Assembly (NCBI RefSeq): GCF_031127815.1
Contig: NZ_JARXHY010000001.1
Coordinates: 496,001-560,000, forward strand
From: Pelagicoccus sp. SDUM812003
GTDB lineage: Bacteria; Verrucomicrobiota; Verrucomicrobiia; Opitutales; Opitutaceae
Length of the DNA: 64,000 bases
Reading direction: 5' to 3'
Position numbers and translations under genes: made by a program. Shown here in pieces: positions 15,190 to 29,876 of this stretch. The notes beneath the pieces are model-generated. The model was not told where the DNA came from. It was given only the letters and a program-made list of their open reading frames with translations, and did not search any database. Positions within the stretch are counted from its first letter, which is position 1. Every line of letters starts with the position of its first letter.

Positions 15190-16896
15190 ATGGCTAACGT
15201 TCTTCTAGTCGACTCCGACGAGGTCGCCCAGCGCGCGATGAAAGGCTTCCTGCTGCGTGGCGATCATCGTTTCGCGGCTGCGAGTTCGGCCCATGAAGCG
15301 TGGGAGTTCATTCGTCAGGTGGTGAAGGTCGACGCGGTGATTTGCGAGCTGCGTTTGAAAGGGGATGATGGTTTGACGCTCATTCAGCGCTTGAAGAACG
15401 ACCCCTTTTTCCGGGCCTTGCCGGTGATCGTCTACACCGCTCACGCGGACAAGGAGAGCGTGAAGCAGGTATTGAGTCTTCGCGTACAGAATTTTCTGCT
15501 GAAGCCCTATCGGGAGGAGGCGTTGCTGCCGGAGATCGGAAAGGCCGTGGCGGATCCGTGGATCGACCAGCTTTTCGTTTCGGACAAGGAGATTTGCGCC
15601 AAGCACAATGTGGGGATCGATCGAGTTCGCGCCAAAAAGGAGGAGTTGGTCTCGCTGCTCGGCAAGGTCAAGGAGATGCTGGCGGACTTGGCGAAGCGCG
15701 AGAAGAGCAAGGAAGCGAGCGAAGTGCTGCACAAGCTGGGCGGGCGGGCGTCGCTGCTGGGAGCCCGCGGCTTGCTGCGGGCGCTCAAGATTTTGGATAC
15801 AAAGGCCCTCGCAGGGGATTGGGGGGATTTTGAAAAGGCTTTGGACCTGCTCTCGTTGGGGGCGAGATTGACGGAGTTGAATCTCAACCCCGATAGCATT
15901 CCGGAGGCGTTTCTCACCGAAGAGGAAATCAACAGCGAAAAGGAAGGCGAGGCGCGAGAGCGTTGGGCAACGGCCCACCGGGAAGGACGCTGTCCGATGG
16001 TCGGCTGGGATCAGCTCAAGCGCGAGCTCGACAAGCTAACCAGCTGTCCGATCGTAGACTCCATCGCGGCGGCGTATCAGATGGCGGCCAACGGGCATCC
16101 CACCTCCCTCAGCCCTTTGCTCGATCTGGTGCGCAAGGATCCTGGGCTGACCGCGGAGATCCTGGCTTCGGCGAACCGCATGAAGCGTTCCGAAGATGAT
16201 GGCGATCCGGGCATCTTGGAGGAGCCGCGCATGGCCATCGGCTGGCTGGGGGAAAACCGCTTGGCGGCTCTTGGCGGAAATCTGGTGACGGTGGAGGAGC
16301 GCCTGATCCGTGTCCCGCCACTGTTCAACTGGCCCAACTTTCGACTCTTCCAGCTGGGAACGGCTCACATGGCCCGTTTCGTCTGCGAGCACCTGGAAAT
16401 GGCTTCCTTTTCGGTTTCCGCCTACACCGCCGGCATGATCCACGATCTGGGCAAGCTGCTGTTGATGCGTCTGCACCCGTTCGCCTTCCCCGCGATCCAC
16501 GAGCACGCCATCCGCGAAGGCCTGACCCTGGCCAAGGCGGAACGCCATTTTTTGGAGGTCAGCACTTACGAAATGGCGGCTTACTTCGCGGAGAAGCAGG
16601 ACTTGCCCAGGCAGTATGTGAACGTGTTCCGCTGGATGGAGAAACCGGAGGAAGCTCCAGTGGACTCCGATCTCGTGGCGGTGGTCTCGCTGGCCCGTGA
16701 CCTCTGCCGGCGCAACGAGGTGGGCTTCAACGGGGATACGCCGGAGGATGATGCCACGCCGCTGGAGGAGACCTCCGAATGGCAGGTTCTCAAGAACCGC
16801 GTCTACCTGAACTTCGATCTGAAGAGATTCGAGAAGCAGGCCCACAAAGAGTGTCTCGCGATCCGCCGCGAGCTGCGAGGCCTCTTCTCCCGTTAG
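15190..16896 (+). CDS. Pseudo-receiver / Hpt-like / HDOD signalling protein
   Basis: A 568-residue cytoplasmic protein with three parts. Residues 3-120 form a receiver domain, but the phospho-acceptor Asp is replaced by Glu (E53 in VICELRL), while D8, T83 and K105 remain; E at this place can mimic the phosphorylated state. Residues about 150-225 resemble an Hpt bundle, with H181 in VLHKLGGRASLLGA. Residues about 270-500 are an HDOD domain (AYTAGMIHDLGKLLLM). HDOD proteins act in c-di-GMP, stress and motility signalling, usually without catalysis. purT follows 66 bp downstream. A second HDOD protein with a degenerate receiver lies on the other side of purT. Confidence 0.85.
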   Translation: MANVLLVDSDEVAQRAMKGFLLRGDHRFAAASSAHEAWEFIRQVVKVDAVICELRLKGDDGLTLIQRLKNDPFFRALPVIVYTAHADKESVKQVLSLRVQNFLLKPYREEALLPEIGKAVADPWIDQLFVSDKEICAKHNVGIDRVRAKKEELVSLLGKVKEMLADLAKREKSKEASEVLHKLGGRASLLGARGLLRALKILDTKALAGDWGDFEKALDLLSLGARLTELNLNPDSIPEAFLTEEEINSEKEGEARERWATAHREGRCPMVGWDQLKRELDKLTSCPIVDSIAAAYQMAANGHPTSLSPLLDLVRKDPGLTAEILASANRMKRSEDDGDPGILEEPRMAIGWLGENRLAALGGNLVTVEERLIRVPPLFNWPNFRLFQLGTAHMARFVCEHLEMASFSVSAYTAGMIHDLGKLLLMRLHPFAFPAIHEHAIREGLTLAKAERHFLEVSTYEMAAYFAEKQDLPRQYVNVFRWMEKPEEAPVDSDLVAVVSLARDLCRRNEVGFNGDTPEDDATPLEETSEWQVLKNRVYLNFDLKRFEKQAHKECLAIRRELRGLFSR

Positions 16897-18207: not shown

Positions 18208-20043
18208 TTAGTCGAGATCGATCACGCGAACGCGCCCGTAGTGCTCCACGCTGATGCTGGTGCGCTCGATGCCGACGATTCGAGCCTCATCCAAACGGTC
18301 TCCGATGCCGACGATGCGATTGTTCACCTGAGCTTTGGGATCGTTGGCGCGGAAGAAGATCGCCCCCAGCCTGATCTCCGGGAATGGCGGCGGTGGCGGG
18401 GGTGGAGGTTCCACCGGCGGGGGCGGTTCCTCGATCGCTTCGGCGTCCAGCGATTGTCCCATTTCGAGAATCTCTTCCACAAGCTTGCCGCGGGAAACGG
18501 ATTTGGCCAGGCCAGCCGTTTCTTCGGGGTCCGAAGATTCAGAGCCGGCCAGAGCTTGAGAAGCGTCCCGCTGGTCGGTTTTGGAAAATGTATTTATAAA
18601 ATAGATACAAATCAGACTTACCAAAACCCCTGCTGCGAAGGCGAACAGGATGTTCTTCCCATAGCTTTGGGCTGATTCCAACCGTTCCTCTTCCACTTTC
18701 CTCAGGGCGGCCCGTGCCACGGCTTCCGAGAGCGCCGCGTGAGCTGCATGGGTCACCGGATCGGGAGCGGGCGGAGTGAGGTGGGTGGCTGCTGGCTTAG
18801 GTTCCACGGCTTGATCAGGTGGCTGACGAACGAGTTTCGCCTTGGGGCGCGGCGGTGGCTCCCCGATGGCGACCGCTTGCCACGCTTCCCAGCGGCCGAC
18901 TTTTCCGATTTCCTCAAGGAATCCCTGGTTGGGCGCGGCGTCGACATGATGCGGGTTGCGCCGTTTGCGAACGATCGCGTTGGCCGCGTGGACTGCTGCC
19001 AGAGACGAGAAGCTCTCTCTGCAGCTATTGGCTGGACGGTGGTGCAAGGCGGCGGTTTCGCACAGCGATTCCGACAGTCCCCAACGGGCGAGCAGGTAGG
19101 CGCCTACCTCTGCGTGGTCGCATCCGATGGCTCGCGCTTCGGCCTGCCAAGGCGGGATCGATTCCTCCCGAGCCAGTCGCTGCGCTTCGTCGAACGCTTC
19201 GGTATCCAAATCCAGCAGAACAAGCTTGCCAATGTCGTGCAGGAGCCCGGCAGTGTAGGCTTCCTCCGCGGAGGCAGGATTGTCTGTCTCGAAAAGACTG
19301 ATACGCCGGGCGGCGGTGGCCACTTCTATGCTATGGTGCCAGAGCTCGTTGAGCAGCGCCTTGTGGCGAGGGGAATGAGCTTGCCGGTCGAAGACCTGAG
19401 CGGCCAGCACGATGGTCTTCACGGTTTCGAATCCCAGGATAGATATGGCGTGCGGGATGTCCGAAACTTTCTGGTCGAAGCCGAAGTGAGAGGAGTTGAC
19501 CGTTTCGAGGATTTTGGAGGAAAGGGCGAGATTGCTGCTGATCGAATCCGCGATTGACGACGTGTCGGCGTGAGGAGCGTTGAGAGCGGCCACCACCTTG
19601 AGGTAGAGAGGCGGAAGCGTCTCGAAGGCGGTTCGACTGCTGACCACCTCTTTCACCACTGGGTTTTCCAGCCACGAGTCGATCGCTAAGCATTTCTGGA
19701 ATTCGAAGTGGAGGCGATCCTGCGGACATGGTCTGGGAAGGTAGCGGCACCCGCCTTCGAGCGCCGAGGTCAGCTGTTCCTTTTCGGATTCGCTTGCGGC
19801 GATGAAGGCATGCGCCATGGGAGCTCGATCGACGAGACGGGATAGGAGCTGCAGACCGTTTCCGCCTTGGAAGCCAAGTGACGCGACGATGATATCGGGT
19901 GCGCTCGTCTCGCAGCTTTCCAGAGCGTCCTCTTCCGAGCTGCAGAAAGCCATGGTCCAAGTGGAGTTCTTGGAGGAAAGGGCGTTTCGGTAGCGTTCGA
20001 GATGTTCGAGCTCGTGATCGATGATGAGCAAGTGGGCGCTCAT
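18208..20043 (-). CDS. Degenerate receiver-HDOD protein fused to a membrane anchor and GspC-like periplasmic domain
   Basis: A 611-residue fusion. Residues 3-120 resemble a receiver domain, but the phospho-acceptor Asp is Ser (S55 in IIVASLGF) and the conserved Lys is Arg (R104). Residues about 130-345 are an HDOD domain retaining LLHDIGKL (H269, D270). A Pro-rich linker leads to one transmembrane helix (465-484). A second Pro-rich stretch (539-555) ends in a 55-residue beta domain (EIRLGAIFF, VNNRIVGIGDRL, ARIVGIERTSISVEH) with the strand pattern of the GspC/PilP homology region. The N-terminal part should be cytoplasmic and the tail periplasmic. This suggests a sensor linking an envelope machine to HDOD signalling; that is inference. 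Confidence 0.8.
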   Translation of the reverse strand: MSAHLLIIDHELEHLERYRNALSSKNSTWTMAFCSSEEDALESCETSAPDIIVASLGFQGGNGLQLLSRLVDRAPMAHAFIAASESEKEQLTSALEGGCRYLPRPCPQDRLHFEFQKCLAIDSWLENPVVKEVVSSRTAFETLPPLYLKVVAALNAPHADTSSIADSISSNLALSSKILETVNSSHFGFDQKVSDIPHAISILGFETVKTIVLAAQVFDRQAHSPRHKALLNELWHHSIEVATAARRISLFETDNPASAEEAYTAGLLHDIGKLVLLDLDTEAFDEAQRLAREESIPPWQAEARAIGCDHAEVGAYLLARWGLSESLCETAALHHRPANSCRESFSSLAAVHAANAIVRKRRNPHHVDAAPNQGFLEEIGKVGRWEAWQAVAIGEPPPRPKAKLVRQPPDQAVEPKPAATHLTPPAPDPVTHAAHAALSEAVARAALRKVEEERLESAQSYGKNILFAFAAGVLVSLICIYFINTFSKTDQRDASQALAGSESSDPEETAGLAKSVSRGKLVEEILEMGQSLDAEAIEEPPPPVEPPPPPPPPFPEIRLGAIFFRANDPKAQVNNRIVGIGDRLDEARIVGIERTSISVEHYGRVRVIDLD

Positions 20044-21882: not shown

Positions 21883-23967
21883 ATGATGACGCTTCGTCTA
21901 CCAGCGATCTTCGCTCTTTTCACCGCAATCTCAGTCGGCGCCTTGTCCAGCGCCCAAACGCCGAGCTTCACTCAAACCGCTTCCGTGCACGATCCGTCGG
22001 TGATCAAGGTGGGCGACCGCTTCTACGTCTTCGGCTCGCACGGAGCGTCCGCGTGGTCCACCGACCTGATGAACTGGACTCAAGTGGCTTCCAGCGTGAA
22101 TCAGGGAAATCCTCGGCATTTCGACACGTTTCAGAGCGAGTTGTCTGAACTGATCCAGTGGACGAACGCCACCAGCCTTTGGGCTGCGGACGTCTATCAA
22201 CTCGAGGATGGGAAATACTACTATTACTACAATGTCTGGACGAACCATCAGGGCTACCGTAGCTACATGGGTCTGGCGGTTTCGGACGAAATCGAAGGTC
22301 CCTACGAGGACTTGGGCGAGATTTTAAGGGGCGGGACTGGGGTGAGCGGTTTCGATCCGAGCGTCGACCCCAATACCATCGATCCCACGCTCTATCGCGA
22401 CACGGAGGACAATCTCTGGATGGTCTACGGCTCTTATTCCGGCGGCATCTTCACCATGGAGATGGACGACCAGACGGGCTTTCAGAAGCCGAATCAAGGC
22501 TGGGGGACCTACCTGCTCGGCGGAGGGCACGACCAGATCGAGGGCCCGTTCATCGACTACAATGCGGAGACCGAAAAATACTACCTCTTTCTATCCTACG
22601 GCGGATTGGGAGCGAACGATGGCTACAACATGCGCGCCTTCCGCTCGGACAATCCCGATGGCCCTTTCTACGACCCGGCTGGCAATGACATGTCGCAAGT
22701 GACGGGCCCGTTCGCGGATTACGGTCTTAAGCTTGCTGGAAACTGGCGGTTCACGCCCGTAGAAGGCGAACCTGCTCAGACGGTGACAGGCTACCGCTCG
22801 CCGGGACACAACTCGGTGATCAAGGATCCGGCCACCGGCAAGTGGTTTAACATTTTCCACTCCCGCTTCGAGGGACGCGGCGAGCTGCATGAGATCCGCG
22901 TCCATCAGATGTTTTTCAACGAGGACGGATGGCCGGTGATGGCTCCGCACCGCTTCGCGGGCGAAACGCAAGGCAGCTACACCGCGGCGGAGATTTCGGG
23001 AGCCTACAAGGTGCTCAACCACGGAAAGGACATCACTGGAACCATGAAGACTTCCGAGGTCGTCGGTCTGCAGGAAAGCGGATCCCTCGCAGGCGCCGAT
23101 GGAAGCTGGGAAATGGTGGATGACAAAAACATCCGCATCAGCATGAACGGCACGCTCTTCAAGGGCGTGGTCAGCGAGATGTGGGACAACGAAAATCAGC
23201 GATGGGTAAACGCGTTCACCGCGATTTCGCAGAACGGCGAGTCGCTTTGGGGCAGCGAAGTCGCGGTCGCGGCTCGGACTGGCGATGTGCCGTCTCCCGA
23301 GCTGGAAGCGGTCGGAAACCGGGTCGTGGATGTGAGCGAATCGCTTTCCCTGACCTTGACGAACCTGGCTCCCGTGGGGGACCTCGAGCTCTCCTACGAA
23401 GTGGAGCAAGGCCCGGAAGGGTTGACTGTCGATAGCGAAACGGGGCAAGTCTCTTGGCAGCCGATCGCGTCTCAAGCGGGTAACGTTTTCGAGGTGCGCA
23501 TTCAGATCTACGACTTTTATGAACCGAATCTGTCAGACGAGGTTGCCTTCTACGTCTACGTTTCCGACTCCCAAGGCAGCTCGCCGATCGACGATTGGCG
23601 TACGGAAAACTTCGGAGAAAATCCGGCGGAGGGCGTGGCGGGCAACGGTGACGATCCGGACCAGGATGGACGCCCGAATCTCGTGGAGTACGCGCTGGGA
23701 ACGGATCCCATGGCGCCGGATGTCGATACCGCGTCCGACGTTGAGCTGGTGGGCGACAAACTGGTTTGGACCTTCAGCCGCACAGCGGATCCCGCCCTGC
23801 AGTTTGAGGTGAGGGCGCGTTCGTCCCTCGTCGGGGCCGAATCGGAAGTGATCTGGTCAAGCATGGGAAGCGCGAACCTCGAAGGCGACGCCCAAGTAGA
23901 GGTCGATGTGCCAGCCGGCTCCGAAGGGCAGGTCTTCCTCGAGCTGACGGTCGATGCGTTCGAGTGA
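21883..23967 (+). CDS. Secreted GH43 arabinanase/arabinofuranosidase with C-terminal Ig-like and tail modules
   Basis: A 694-residue secreted five-bladed propeller enzyme. A signal peptide ends near residue 24 (SSAQ). The three GH43 acidic residues are visible: D37 in HDPSVIK (base), D167 in NTIDPTLYRD (pKa modulator) and E220 in QIEGPFI (acid). The HNS motif in GHNSVIKDPATGKWFNIFHSR fits endo-1,5-alpha-L-arabinanases. A small beta domain (about 375-470) and a cadherin/He_PIG-type Ig domain (about 475-570) follow, then the tail DPDQDGRPNLVEYALGTDP, which matches that of the GH16 enzyme. Substrate is probably arabinan or another arabinose-containing glycan. A strong terminator lies 60 bp downstream. 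Confidence 0.9.
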   Translation: MMTLRLPAIFALFTAISVGALSSAQTPSFTQTASVHDPSVIKVGDRFYVFGSHGASAWSTDLMNWTQVASSVNQGNPRHFDTFQSELSELIQWTNATSLWAADVYQLEDGKYYYYYNVWTNHQGYRSYMGLAVSDEIEGPYEDLGEILRGGTGVSGFDPSVDPNTIDPTLYRDTEDNLWMVYGSYSGGIFTMEMDDQTGFQKPNQGWGTYLLGGGHDQIEGPFIDYNAETEKYYLFLSYGGLGANDGYNMRAFRSDNPDGPFYDPAGNDMSQVTGPFADYGLKLAGNWRFTPVEGEPAQTVTGYRSPGHNSVIKDPATGKWFNIFHSRFEGRGELHEIRVHQMFFNEDGWPVMAPHRFAGETQGSYTAAEISGAYKVLNHGKDITGTMKTSEVVGLQESGSLAGADGSWEMVDDKNIRISMNGTLFKGVVSEMWDNENQRWVNAFTAISQNGESLWGSEVAVAARTGDVPSPELEAVGNRVVDVSESLSLTLTNLAPVGDLELSYEVEQGPEGLTVDSETGQVSWQPIASQAGNVFEVRIQIYDFYEPNLSDEVAFYVYVSDSQGSSPIDDWRTENFGENPAEGVAGNGDDPDQDGRPNLVEYALGTDPMAPDVDTASDVELVGDKLVWTFSRTADPALQFEVRARSSLVGAESEVIWSSMGSANLEGDAQVEVDVPAGSEGQVFLELTVDAFE

Positions 23968-27333: not shown

Positions 27334-29643
27334 TTAGAAGTTCGCTGAATCGATTGTTTGAATACTGCCGGGTTGGCCGCGCAGTTCGATGGTTTGGCCA
27401 GCGTAGCGAACGACGATGCTTGGGGGGCTGTTGTCTCCGAAGACGATTTCCGCTGACGCGAGCTCCCCATCCTTCCAGTTCATGGTGATGGTGAAATCTC
27501 CCCGTGCCCGAAGTCCGGATACGGAACCGGTCGCCCAAGCTTCTGGCAGAGCGGGTAGGAGCCTGATCTCGTCGTTGTGGCTGTGCAGCAGCATTTCCGC
27601 AATGGCGGCGGTGGCGCCGAAGTTGCCATCGATCTGGAAGGGCGGGTGCATGTCGAAGAGATTGCCGACAGTGGATTGTCGGAGGATTTCGATGAGGTGA
27701 TGGTAGGCGGTTTCCGCTTCCGAGAGGCGAGCGTACATGCCGATGGTCCAGGCTCGACTCCAGCCGGTGGCGGCTCCGCCTTTGGCGATGCGTTCCTCGA
27801 TTACCTTTTCGACGGCGCTGCGCATTTCGGGATCTGTATCCAAATTTATCTGATTGCCTGGGTAGGCTCCGAGCACGTGGGATATGTGGCGATGGGCTGG
27901 CTCTTTTTCCTCGAAGGGCAGGCGCCATTCCATGAGACGTCCGTCGTTTGCGATGCGAGGACGATAGACCTTTGGTAGTTTCGACGCGATTTCTTGAGCG
28001 AAGGCATCGTCCTGTTTGCCGAGAGCTTCGGCGGCTTCGAGGTAGTCGCTGAACACTTGCAGAACCATGTATTGGTCGAAGCTGTTGCCAGCGGAAAAGG
28101 CGGCGGATTGGGCCTCGCCGTTTTCGTCGGTGTAGAGAAAGGAGTTTTCGGGCGAGCAGGCGGGGCGGGCCATGAGCTGTCCGTCCTCGGGGCCGGGGAT
28201 CAGCCAGGAATCGACGAACTCCACGGAGGCGGTGAGCAGGTCCCAGTGCTCGGCGAGAAAGTCGGTGTCCTGGGTGAAGCGAAACTGCTCGAGGATGTGA
28301 AGCGTCATCCATTGTCCGCCGAAGAAGGAGCCGCCCCAGTAGCTGCGGCTGGACATCATGTGAGCGTTGGCCCAGATGTCGGAGGCGTGGCCCATGCCCC
28401 AGCCTTTCATGCCGAGGCGTTTCGCCATTTCGCGTCCTTTGGGCTGGTAGTAGCGGATGAGGTCGAAGAACGGCTGGTGCAGTTCGGAGAGATTGGTGGT
28501 CTCCGCGTGCCAGTAGTTCATCTGGATGTTGATGTTCAGATGGAAATCGGAACTCCAAGGGGCCCATTCGTGGGGATTCCAGATGCCTTGCAGGTTAGCC
28601 GGGAAGGTGCCGGGACGAGAGGATGCGATGAGCAGGTAGCGTCCGAACTGGAAGTAGGTTTCGATCAAGTCGGGATCGTCGGTATTTCCGTCTTGGATAC
28701 GTTTGAGGCGTTCGGGCGTGGTGAGACTCGCGATTTCGGGAGCGGTTTCCCCGAGGTCGATAGTGACGCGATCGAAGTAGGTTCTGTGGTCGGCGATGGC
28801 GGTTTGACGAAGCGTGGCCAGGCTGTTTTCCGCTGTATCGAGTTTTTGGATGTTGGCGGATTGCCAGCCATCGGAGAGCATCGTGCCGCTTCGGTGAAGG
28901 TCGAAGTTTGTGGCGGCGGAAAGGAGAAGGGTGTGGGATCGACGGGCGGGAGCGAGCAGGGTGTCGTTTTCGGCGTTTGCCGACTCCGCGAAGCGGAAGC
29001 GTCCCTGGTAGCGGGTGCGATCCGGGTGCTCGCCGTCGCTGATGCCGTCTAGGACAAGGTCGCCGTCCTCGACCCGTCCGTCTTCGATACTGAGGCGGAG
29101 TCCGATCGGGGAGGTCGCTGTGATCTCGACCACGAGCAGGTCGAGCGGGGCGGAGGCGTAGACGCGTTGGGTGACTTGGTTTCCGTCGCTGAGCGTGTGG
29201 GTCGTGGAAGCGATGCCGGTCTGAAGCTCGAGCTGGCGGTTTGTGGATTCGAGGGAGGCGTCGGTCAGGTAGTCGAGCTGCAGCCAGCCGAGGTATTGAT
29301 AGCTATAGGGATCGGCGGGTTTTTGCAGTTTGGTTTCGAAGACCCGGTCCGCTTCGGCGTACTTGCCGGCGGCCTCCAGCTCGCGAATGGTCTCCAGGTG
29401 CTTGAAGCTATCCTTCGGCATGCGCAGGTCCGGACCGCGGTGCCAGATGGTCTCCTCGTTGAGCAGGATCTTCTCGGTGGGGAACTGGCTGAACGGCATG
29501 GCCCCGAGGCGTCCGTTCCCGACCGGATAGGCGTCTGTCCACTCGACGGCAGCTTGGTCGTCGCGAATGGTTTGGGCCTCGAGAAGGAGGGGGGCTGTGA
29601 GGGCGATGGCAGCGATTGCAAAGAAGGGTTTTAGAGGTGACAC
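27334..29643 (-). CDS. Secreted GH95 alpha-L-fucosidase
   Basis: A 769-residue enzyme of GH95 (1,2-alpha-L-fucosidase or alpha-L-galactosidase), exported by a signal peptide (LKPFFAIAAIALTAPLLLEA). Diagnostic segments are AYPVGNGRLGAM and LNEETIWHRGPD in the N-terminal beta domain, the (alpha/alpha)6 segment NLQGIWNPHEWAPWSSDFH, with NINIQMNYW carrying the conserved Asn pair, and PCSPENSF in the region of the acid Glu. I place the start at GTG 29643, since it opens directly into the signal peptide; the frame is open upstream but unrelated. A long palindrome lies 50 bp upstream. Target glycans are probably fucose-containing algal or host polysaccharides. Confidence 0.88.
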   Translation of the reverse strand: MSPLKPFFAIAAIALTAPLLLEAQTIRDDQAAVEWTDAYPVGNGRLGAMPFSQFPTEKILLNEETIWHRGPDLRMPKDSFKHLETIRELEAAGKYAEADRVFETKLQKPADPYSYQYLGWLQLDYLTDASLESTNRQLELQTGIASTTHTLSDGNQVTQRVYASAPLDLLVVEITATSPIGLRLSIEDGRVEDGDLVLDGISDGEHPDRTRYQGRFRFAESANAENDTLLAPARRSHTLLLSAATNFDLHRSGTMLSDGWQSANIQKLDTAENSLATLRQTAIADHRTYFDRVTIDLGETAPEIASLTTPERLKRIQDGNTDDPDLIETYFQFGRYLLIASSRPGTFPANLQGIWNPHEWAPWSSDFHLNINIQMNYWHAETTNLSELHQPFFDLIRYYQPKGREMAKRLGMKGWGMGHASDIWANAHMMSSRSYWGGSFFGGQWMTLHILEQFRFTQDTDFLAEHWDLLTASVEFVDSWLIPGPEDGQLMARPACSPENSFLYTDENGEAQSAAFSAGNSFDQYMVLQVFSDYLEAAEALGKQDDAFAQEIASKLPKVYRPRIANDGRLMEWRLPFEEKEPAHRHISHVLGAYPGNQINLDTDPEMRSAVEKVIEERIAKGGAATGWSRAWTIGMYARLSEAETAYHHLIEILRQSTVGNLFDMHPPFQIDGNFGATAAIAEMLLHSHNDEIRLLPALPEAWATGSVSGLRARGDFTITMNWKDGELASAEIVFGDNSPPSIVVRYAGQTIELRGQPGSIQTIDSANF

Positions 29644-29692
29644 GATAGAAGACGGTAGCTGTGGCGCCGATTCCCGCAAGGGTAACGAGCTG

Positions 29693-29724
29693 TCAATTTC
29701 TGGCAGGCATCTGGCAGAAATTGA
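29693..29724. promoter_or_regulatory. 14-bp palindromic operator candidate upstream of GH95 gene
   Basis: TCAATTTCTGGCAG (29693-29706) and CTGGCAGAAATTGA (29711-29724) are inverted copies (13 of 14 positions) around a 4-bp spacer. It is 50 bp upstream of the GH95 start and 150 bp upstream of the divergent small gene at 29877. Length, symmetry and site suit a dimeric regulator of the fucosidase gene; no cognate regulator is adjacent. Confidence 0.6.
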
Positions 29725-29876
29725 GGCGCAAGGGTGATCAAAACGGATCGAAGCGTTGGGATCGGGGGGCGTGGGCATGGCCCATGCTGCTCTCTGTCGA
29801 CTTTCACTTCTCAAATTTGTGGGGCGAGCGAGGAGCGAAAGCCGCTTTTTTAACCTACATAAATCGATCTAATACA

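Follow-up and report, generated by a model that had tools for sequence, protein, structure and literature searches.

A receiver-HDOD protein of Pelagicoccus linked by a membrane helix to a predicted GspB/GspC-type domain

Gene and domain layout

The window that was analysed is a complete stretch of 64,000 bp from Pelagicoccus sp. SDUM812003. It contains a gene whose product, P0001, consists of a receiver (REC), an HDOD domain, a single transmembrane (TM) helix, a proline-rich linker and a C-terminal domain predicted to have the homology region (HR) fold of GspB, GspC and PilP (Table 1). A sequence-only reading of this DNA had described the gene, without its strand, and had proposed the HDOD domain, the TM helix and the Pro-rich spacer; the gene is real, and Pfam, hydropathy and the full-length structure model agree with all three parts. 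Elsewhere in the window, two genes resemble glycoside hydrolases when judged by eye, one GH43-like (21883-23967, plus strand) and one GH95-like (27334-29814, minus strand).

Table 1. Position of the fusion gene and of its parts in the window
Feature	Position	Strand	Evidence
Fusion gene, 611 aa, REC-HDOD-TM-Pro linker-HR	18208..20043	-	ORF with ATG start; 16-member family
Receiver (REC), residues 1-118	19690..20043	-	Pfam Response_reg at residues 6-112, E 4.3e-8
Ser for phospho-Asp55 of REC	codon 19879-19881	-	Residue table
Arg for Lys104 of REC	codon 19732-19734	-	Residue table
HDOD domain, residues 142-337	19033..19620	-	Pfam HDOD, E 3e-52
Single TM helix, residues ~465-483	18595..18651	-	Hydropathy; helix 464-490 in full-length model
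Pro-rich and acidic linker, predicted to be disordered and periplasmic, residues 484-551	18391..18594	-	pLDDT <50 at residues 487-541
Predicted GspB/GspC/PilP-type HR domain, residues 552-611, six strands	18211..18390	-	Structure prediction and fold matches

The HDOD domain scored 177.4 bits against a Pfam cut-off of 22.9, and its HD-type positions H237, H269, D270, H310, H334 and H335 were invariant across the family. NCBIfam gave general HD and receiver matches and nothing further. In the full-length model the REC-HDOD head and the C-terminal beta domain were confident and the linkers disordered; the REC part matched solved receiver folds (Z ~18) and the HDOD part matched 3hc1 (Z 21.1) and SadB (9qzk, Z 20.5). 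The hydropathy profile contained one strong hydrophobic stretch (residues 465-483), and no N-terminal signal was found in the P0001 sequence. Most orthologues have an excess of Lys/Arg on the N side of the TM helix; in P0001 both sides are equal. For those orthologues a cytoplasmic N-terminus is predicted, which would put the HR side in the periplasm.

Residues 548-611 were also predicted alone, from an alignment of 16 related tails, giving a model of six strands with a pLDDT of 93.9. Foldseek ranked the GspC HR (3oss_C) first, followed by the PulC HR (6hcg_e) and GspB (4wfw). A second structural aligner matched the tail to 3oss_C with Z 10.0 (1.2 Å over 57 residues), to GspB 4wfw with Z 8.4, to PilP structures with Z 6.5-7.8, to LspC with Z 6.9 and to OutC with Z 5.7; the top 11 solved matches were all HR domains, and the first unrelated row was found at rank 12 (Z 5.4). 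The GspC homology-region pattern that had been read from the tail sequence was thus borne out: the predicted fold is an HR and not an unrelated one, with the GspC HR, GspB and PilP as top solved matches. The crystal structure of OutB/GspB consists of two three-stranded sheets, and DALI relates OutB to the GspC HR and PilP (PMC9239104).

At the sequence level, 12 of 14 tails had a match to the Pfam model T2SSB (GspB, PF16537) at E<1, the best value being 4.6e-8; for CdsD_C it was 13 of 14 tails (best 1.5e-5). A paralogue of P0001 reached 25 bits against T2SSB in a whole-genome scan (E 8.7e-5; gathering score 28.4). In the Pfam search T2SSB did not match the tail of P0001 itself, and CdsD_C matched it weakly (E 0.0083, 16.6 bits against a cut-off of 27). 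T2SSC (GspC, PF11356) matched only 2 of 16 family members, with a best E of 0.024. Searching the PDB by sequence with the tail profile yielded no convincing match; the tail is tied to solved structures by fold comparison only. Together, these results support the view that the tail has the HR fold as in GspB, GspC and PilP, and that its sequence is nearer to GspB than to GspC or PilP; the model was built on 16 related sequences, and a similar fold is no demonstration of function. In the alignment, strand 1 is covered by a conserved FPxIxLxxIF segment and ranks with the most highly conserved stretches of the tail.

Distribution and conservation of the family

The full layout, with HDOD domain, TM helix and HR tail, occurs in 16 aligned orthologues and paralogues from four genera: Pelagicoccus, where each of the eight genomes analysed has it, and three others. 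The orthologues examined keep the HDOD domain, in line with the single chain proposed by the sequence-only reading. A scan of genome contigs with the single protein gave no relatives, whereas an alignment-based scan did. Among 57 relatives, the full layout was present in all eight Pelagicoccus genomes and in one genome of another genus; a tail search across the order (372 genomes) added two carrier genera (G264 and G312), as well as three tail-bearing proteins without HDOD. All carriers outside Pelagicoccus are MAGs of Opitutaceae or Puniceicoccaceae, and one more MAG protein (L105) has the full layout. As the genomes were sampled, this distribution is a lower bound. In the literature searched, no paper that linked HDOD to GspB, to Pelagicoccus, to type II secretion or to type IV pili was found to describe such a layout.

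The SDUM812003 genome has a second copy of 659 aa with the same layout, 44% identical to P0001. Within the family, a B copy (L086 and orthologues) occupies one syntenic locus in Pelagicoccus, G019 and G264, and the A copy, to which the window gene belongs, is present at another location in five Pelagicoccus genomes. Mean pairwise identity across the family was 60% for HDOD, 47% for HR, 42% for REC and 20-24% for the two linkers (Pro-rich linker 24%). The difference between HR and linkers is as expected if the tail has selection of its own.

REC-HDOD relatives of ~400-450 aa without a tail occur widely across Verrucomicrobia, Planctomycetes and Nitrospira, and no HR tail was found in these relatives outside the group. 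In a Pedosphaera MAG from another order, a REC-HDOD protein (L116:69-1988) also has a hydrophobic segment and ends in a Pro-rich C-terminus, without HR; this may be a membrane-anchored form that arose independently or is intermediate, or else a truncated protein. G241 (L051/L190), of the same genus as carrier G264, contains an open frame of 69 aa that carries the tail motif but is interrupted by a stop within the match, and which looks like a decayed copy. In two outgroup genera a tailless REC-HDOD gene is found within a few kb of the fusion (L097:3123-4400 and L099:12895-14085); the head may have come from a relative of such a gene.

The receiver had been described as degenerate. This holds for P0001, which has neither the conserved Asp nor the conserved Lys of a phosphorylatable response regulator (S55, R104), but not for the family as a whole: the proteins from the outgroup genera (L097, L099 and L100) have both Asp55 and Lys104 intact. 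In the 13 Pelagicoccus copies, Lys was lost in all and Asp in 12 (it is kept in L098). The simplest reading of these residues is that a phosphorylatable ancestral receiver turned phosphorylation-independent in Pelagicoccus. Receivers lacking the aspartate are known to occur together with HDOD outputs (PMC4395418).

Another, distinct REC-HDOD protein of 568 aa is encoded in the window at 15190-16896 (plus strand); it has Glu at the place of the phospho-Asp (ICELRL) and has kept the Lys. Its gene is convergent with and near the A copy in 3 of 5 genomes. Strict linkage to the fusion was rejected, as the gene also occurs without an A copy and is missing from G001.

Secretin machines and the proposed mode of action

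A phylum-wide search gave tail matches in 67 of 387 genomes, mostly without HDOD. Neighbouring loci were inspected using ORFs called with a simple script. At five GspB-like loci, the nearest non-HDOD tails were encoded directly downstream of a GspA/ExeA-type AAA ATPase, in proteins with an MSLI..AL start, a membrane helix, a Pro-rich spacer and the HR tail. At five others, tail proteins of ~165-200 aa without MSLI..AL were found amid genes for secretin, GspE, GspF, pseudopilin and PilM/PilN-like proteins. The relatives of the tail, sitting in loci of these two kinds, thus live in secretin machines.

A search for secretin partners, suggested by the sequence-only reading, found four secretins in the genome, on contigs C4 (at 349891 and 433887), C1 (at 378155) and C11 (at 204309), as well as a canonical pair of GspA and a 217-aa GspB, also on contig C11. 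Small HR-like proteins, recognised poorly or not at all by Pfam, are encoded in three secretin operons (L083:8292-8834, L084:6548-7018 and L082:8045-8608) and are probably divergent GspC/PilP equivalents. No secretin or gsp genes, gspA included, were present beside any fusion gene in the neighbourhoods inspected. Because three secretin operons own a small HR-like protein and GspA-GspB is encoded separately, there is no vacancy that the fusion would have to fill; with a canonical GspA-GspB and four secretins in the genome, it is an extra HR protein and not the standard GspB or GspC.

Two further possibilities were rejected. Co-occurrence with a particular secretin class was not found, as carrier and non-carrier genomes are similar in secretin counts. 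Derivation of the tail from the GspB of the same genome was not retained either, since a tree of this 60-residue domain leaves the origin unsettled; in the tail search the own GspB scored 11 bits, against ~40-46 bits for GspB-like proteins of other classes.

With moderate confidence, we regard the fusion as a bitopic inner-membrane secretin-docking subunit of the GspB/GspC type with a cytoplasmic regulatory head. HR domains of GspB, GspC and PilP have been reported to bind the N0 domain of secretins, and in a cross-link-based model the beta1 strand of OutB pairs with N0 (PMC9239104). The HDOD protein SadB binds c-di-GMP, with the HDOD domain itself not demonstrated as the binding site (PMC6543031). 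What the analysis shows are the domains, the predicted fold of the tail, the conservation and the genomic setting of the tail relatives, while topology, secretin docking, choice of secretin, ligand and direction of signalling are inferred. The periplasmic HR would dock on N0 of a secretin of the cell (type II secretion or type IV pilus-like), probably via its conserved strand 1, and the flexible Pro-rich linker would span the periplasm. In the cytoplasm, the REC-HDOD head would bind a ligand or partner, for which c-di-GMP is the obvious candidate, and such binding would couple the secretin machine, in its assembly, placement or activity, to the cell's signalling state. The receivers of the outgroup have retained the residues for phosphorylation; those of Pelagicoccus would mostly act independently of it.

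This layout, being retained in several genera, suggests that a secretion or pilus machine is wired directly to cell signalling. A more specific proposal, to which we give a little less than an even chance, is that one protein forms a transmembrane link through which a cytoplasmic HDOD switch exerts direct control over an outer-membrane secretin; it would dock at the periplasmic gate, have no operon dedicated to it and act alongside the GspB/GspC of the machine itself.

The same anatomy could also work from the outside in, with the HR sensing that a secretin is assembled or engaged and signalling across the membrane to the REC-HDOD head and on to cytoplasmic targets. HDOD proteins elsewhere are signalling outputs (PMC6543031), and the head is conserved above the tail (HDOD 60%, HR 47%). 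However, HR domains of known systems are docking or scaffold parts and not sensors (PMC9239104), and we consider this direction unlikely. Re-use of small beta folds is possible, and the tail might have kept its HR fold for an envelope partner other than a secretin, in which case the protein would be an HDOD regulator tethered to the membrane, with the tail as a general anchor in the periplasm. The fusion gene never adjoins secretin genes and three inspected secretin loci own an HR-like part, as this explanation would have it; yet few parts of the tail are conserved as well as the FPxIxLxxIF strand, the one that faces the secretin in OutB, and the closest relatives of the tail belong to gsp or pil operons, which makes such a partner rather improbable.

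In chlamydial CdsD, a cytoplasmic signalling domain is joined via a membrane helix to a periplasmic part. This similar layout, together with the CdsD_C matches of 13 of 14 tails (best E 1.5e-5), could point to a ring protein of type III secretion (SctD/YscD/CdsD kind) with a cytoplasmic signalling head. T2SSB scores better (4.6e-8), however, the tail relatives are found in type II or type IV-like operons and no type III genes were noticed within the inspected loci, so that a type III ring protein is very unlikely. An assembly artefact or dying chimera, of which the apparent decayed tail fragment in G241 might be a trace, is refuted by the orthologues and has next to no probability, because the layout recurs in sixteen open, co-linear copies from four genera and in L105, with a tail better conserved than the linkers.

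A docking subunit with a regulatory head would bear on the way in which the cytoplasm instructs a type II secretion or pilus secretin on time and place, which is poorly understood. Most regulation of these machines is believed to target the ATPase or expression. With a natural fusion of HDOD and a secretin-docking domain, a direct route becomes testable with few purified domains, and the HDOD family, which works by a mechanism that is still largely unsettled, gains a possible physical target.

Comparison with known systems

The N-terminal 395 residues of the fusion correspond to an ordinary REC-HDOD protein, and its HDOD fold is that of SadB. Receiver-HDOD regulators and SadB, however, end after HDOD, without a membrane anchor or an HR tail. 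CdsD/SctD proteins resemble the tail by a weak profile match; they have no REC-HDOD head, and the relatives of the fusion tail are located in type II or type IV-like operons.

PilP is a lipoprotein of the pilMNOPQ operon without a cytoplasmic domain. It has the same fold as the tail (2lc4, 2y4y and 2ivw), and its HR reportedly binds the secretin of its own system. In GspC, the cytoplasmic N-terminus is short, a PDZ domain is often present and the gene sits in the gsp operon. The GspC HR (3oss, 6hcg and 2lnv) is the best structural match of the fusion tail; the sequence match is weak (T2SSC, two members), and the gsp-operon position is not shared by the fusion, which has no gsp genes in its neighbourhood.

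GspB/OutB/ExeB (PF16537; 4wfw) is the nearest family of the tail by sequence and shares with the fusion one TM helix, a Pro-rich spacer and an HR of the same fold, which is periplasmic in GspB and predicted to be so in the fusion. In GspB, however, the cytoplasmic part is the short MSLI..AL segment, compared with a REC-HDOD head of ~400 aa in the fusion, and gspA is adjacent, whereas the fusion has no such neighbour and the canonical GspB is encoded elsewhere in the genome. Because the MSLI..AL start and the gspA neighbourhood are both absent, we have not filed the fusion as a GspB.

Published GspB archetypes differ in length and domain content, and among them an Alteromonas type carries a cytoplasmic DUF3391; no REC-HDOD head has been described among these archetypes (PMC9239104). 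Like the fusion, the Alteromonas protein carries an added cytoplasmic domain, in its case on a GspB (PMC9239104). It differs in that DUF3391 is neither a receiver nor an HDOD domain, its gene lies beside gsp genes and it comes from another phylum. As DUF3391 also occurs in the V. cholerae HD-GYP protein VC2497 (PMC4212101), the Alteromonas DUF3391-GspB is the nearest precedent for a combination of HD-type signalling with GspB.
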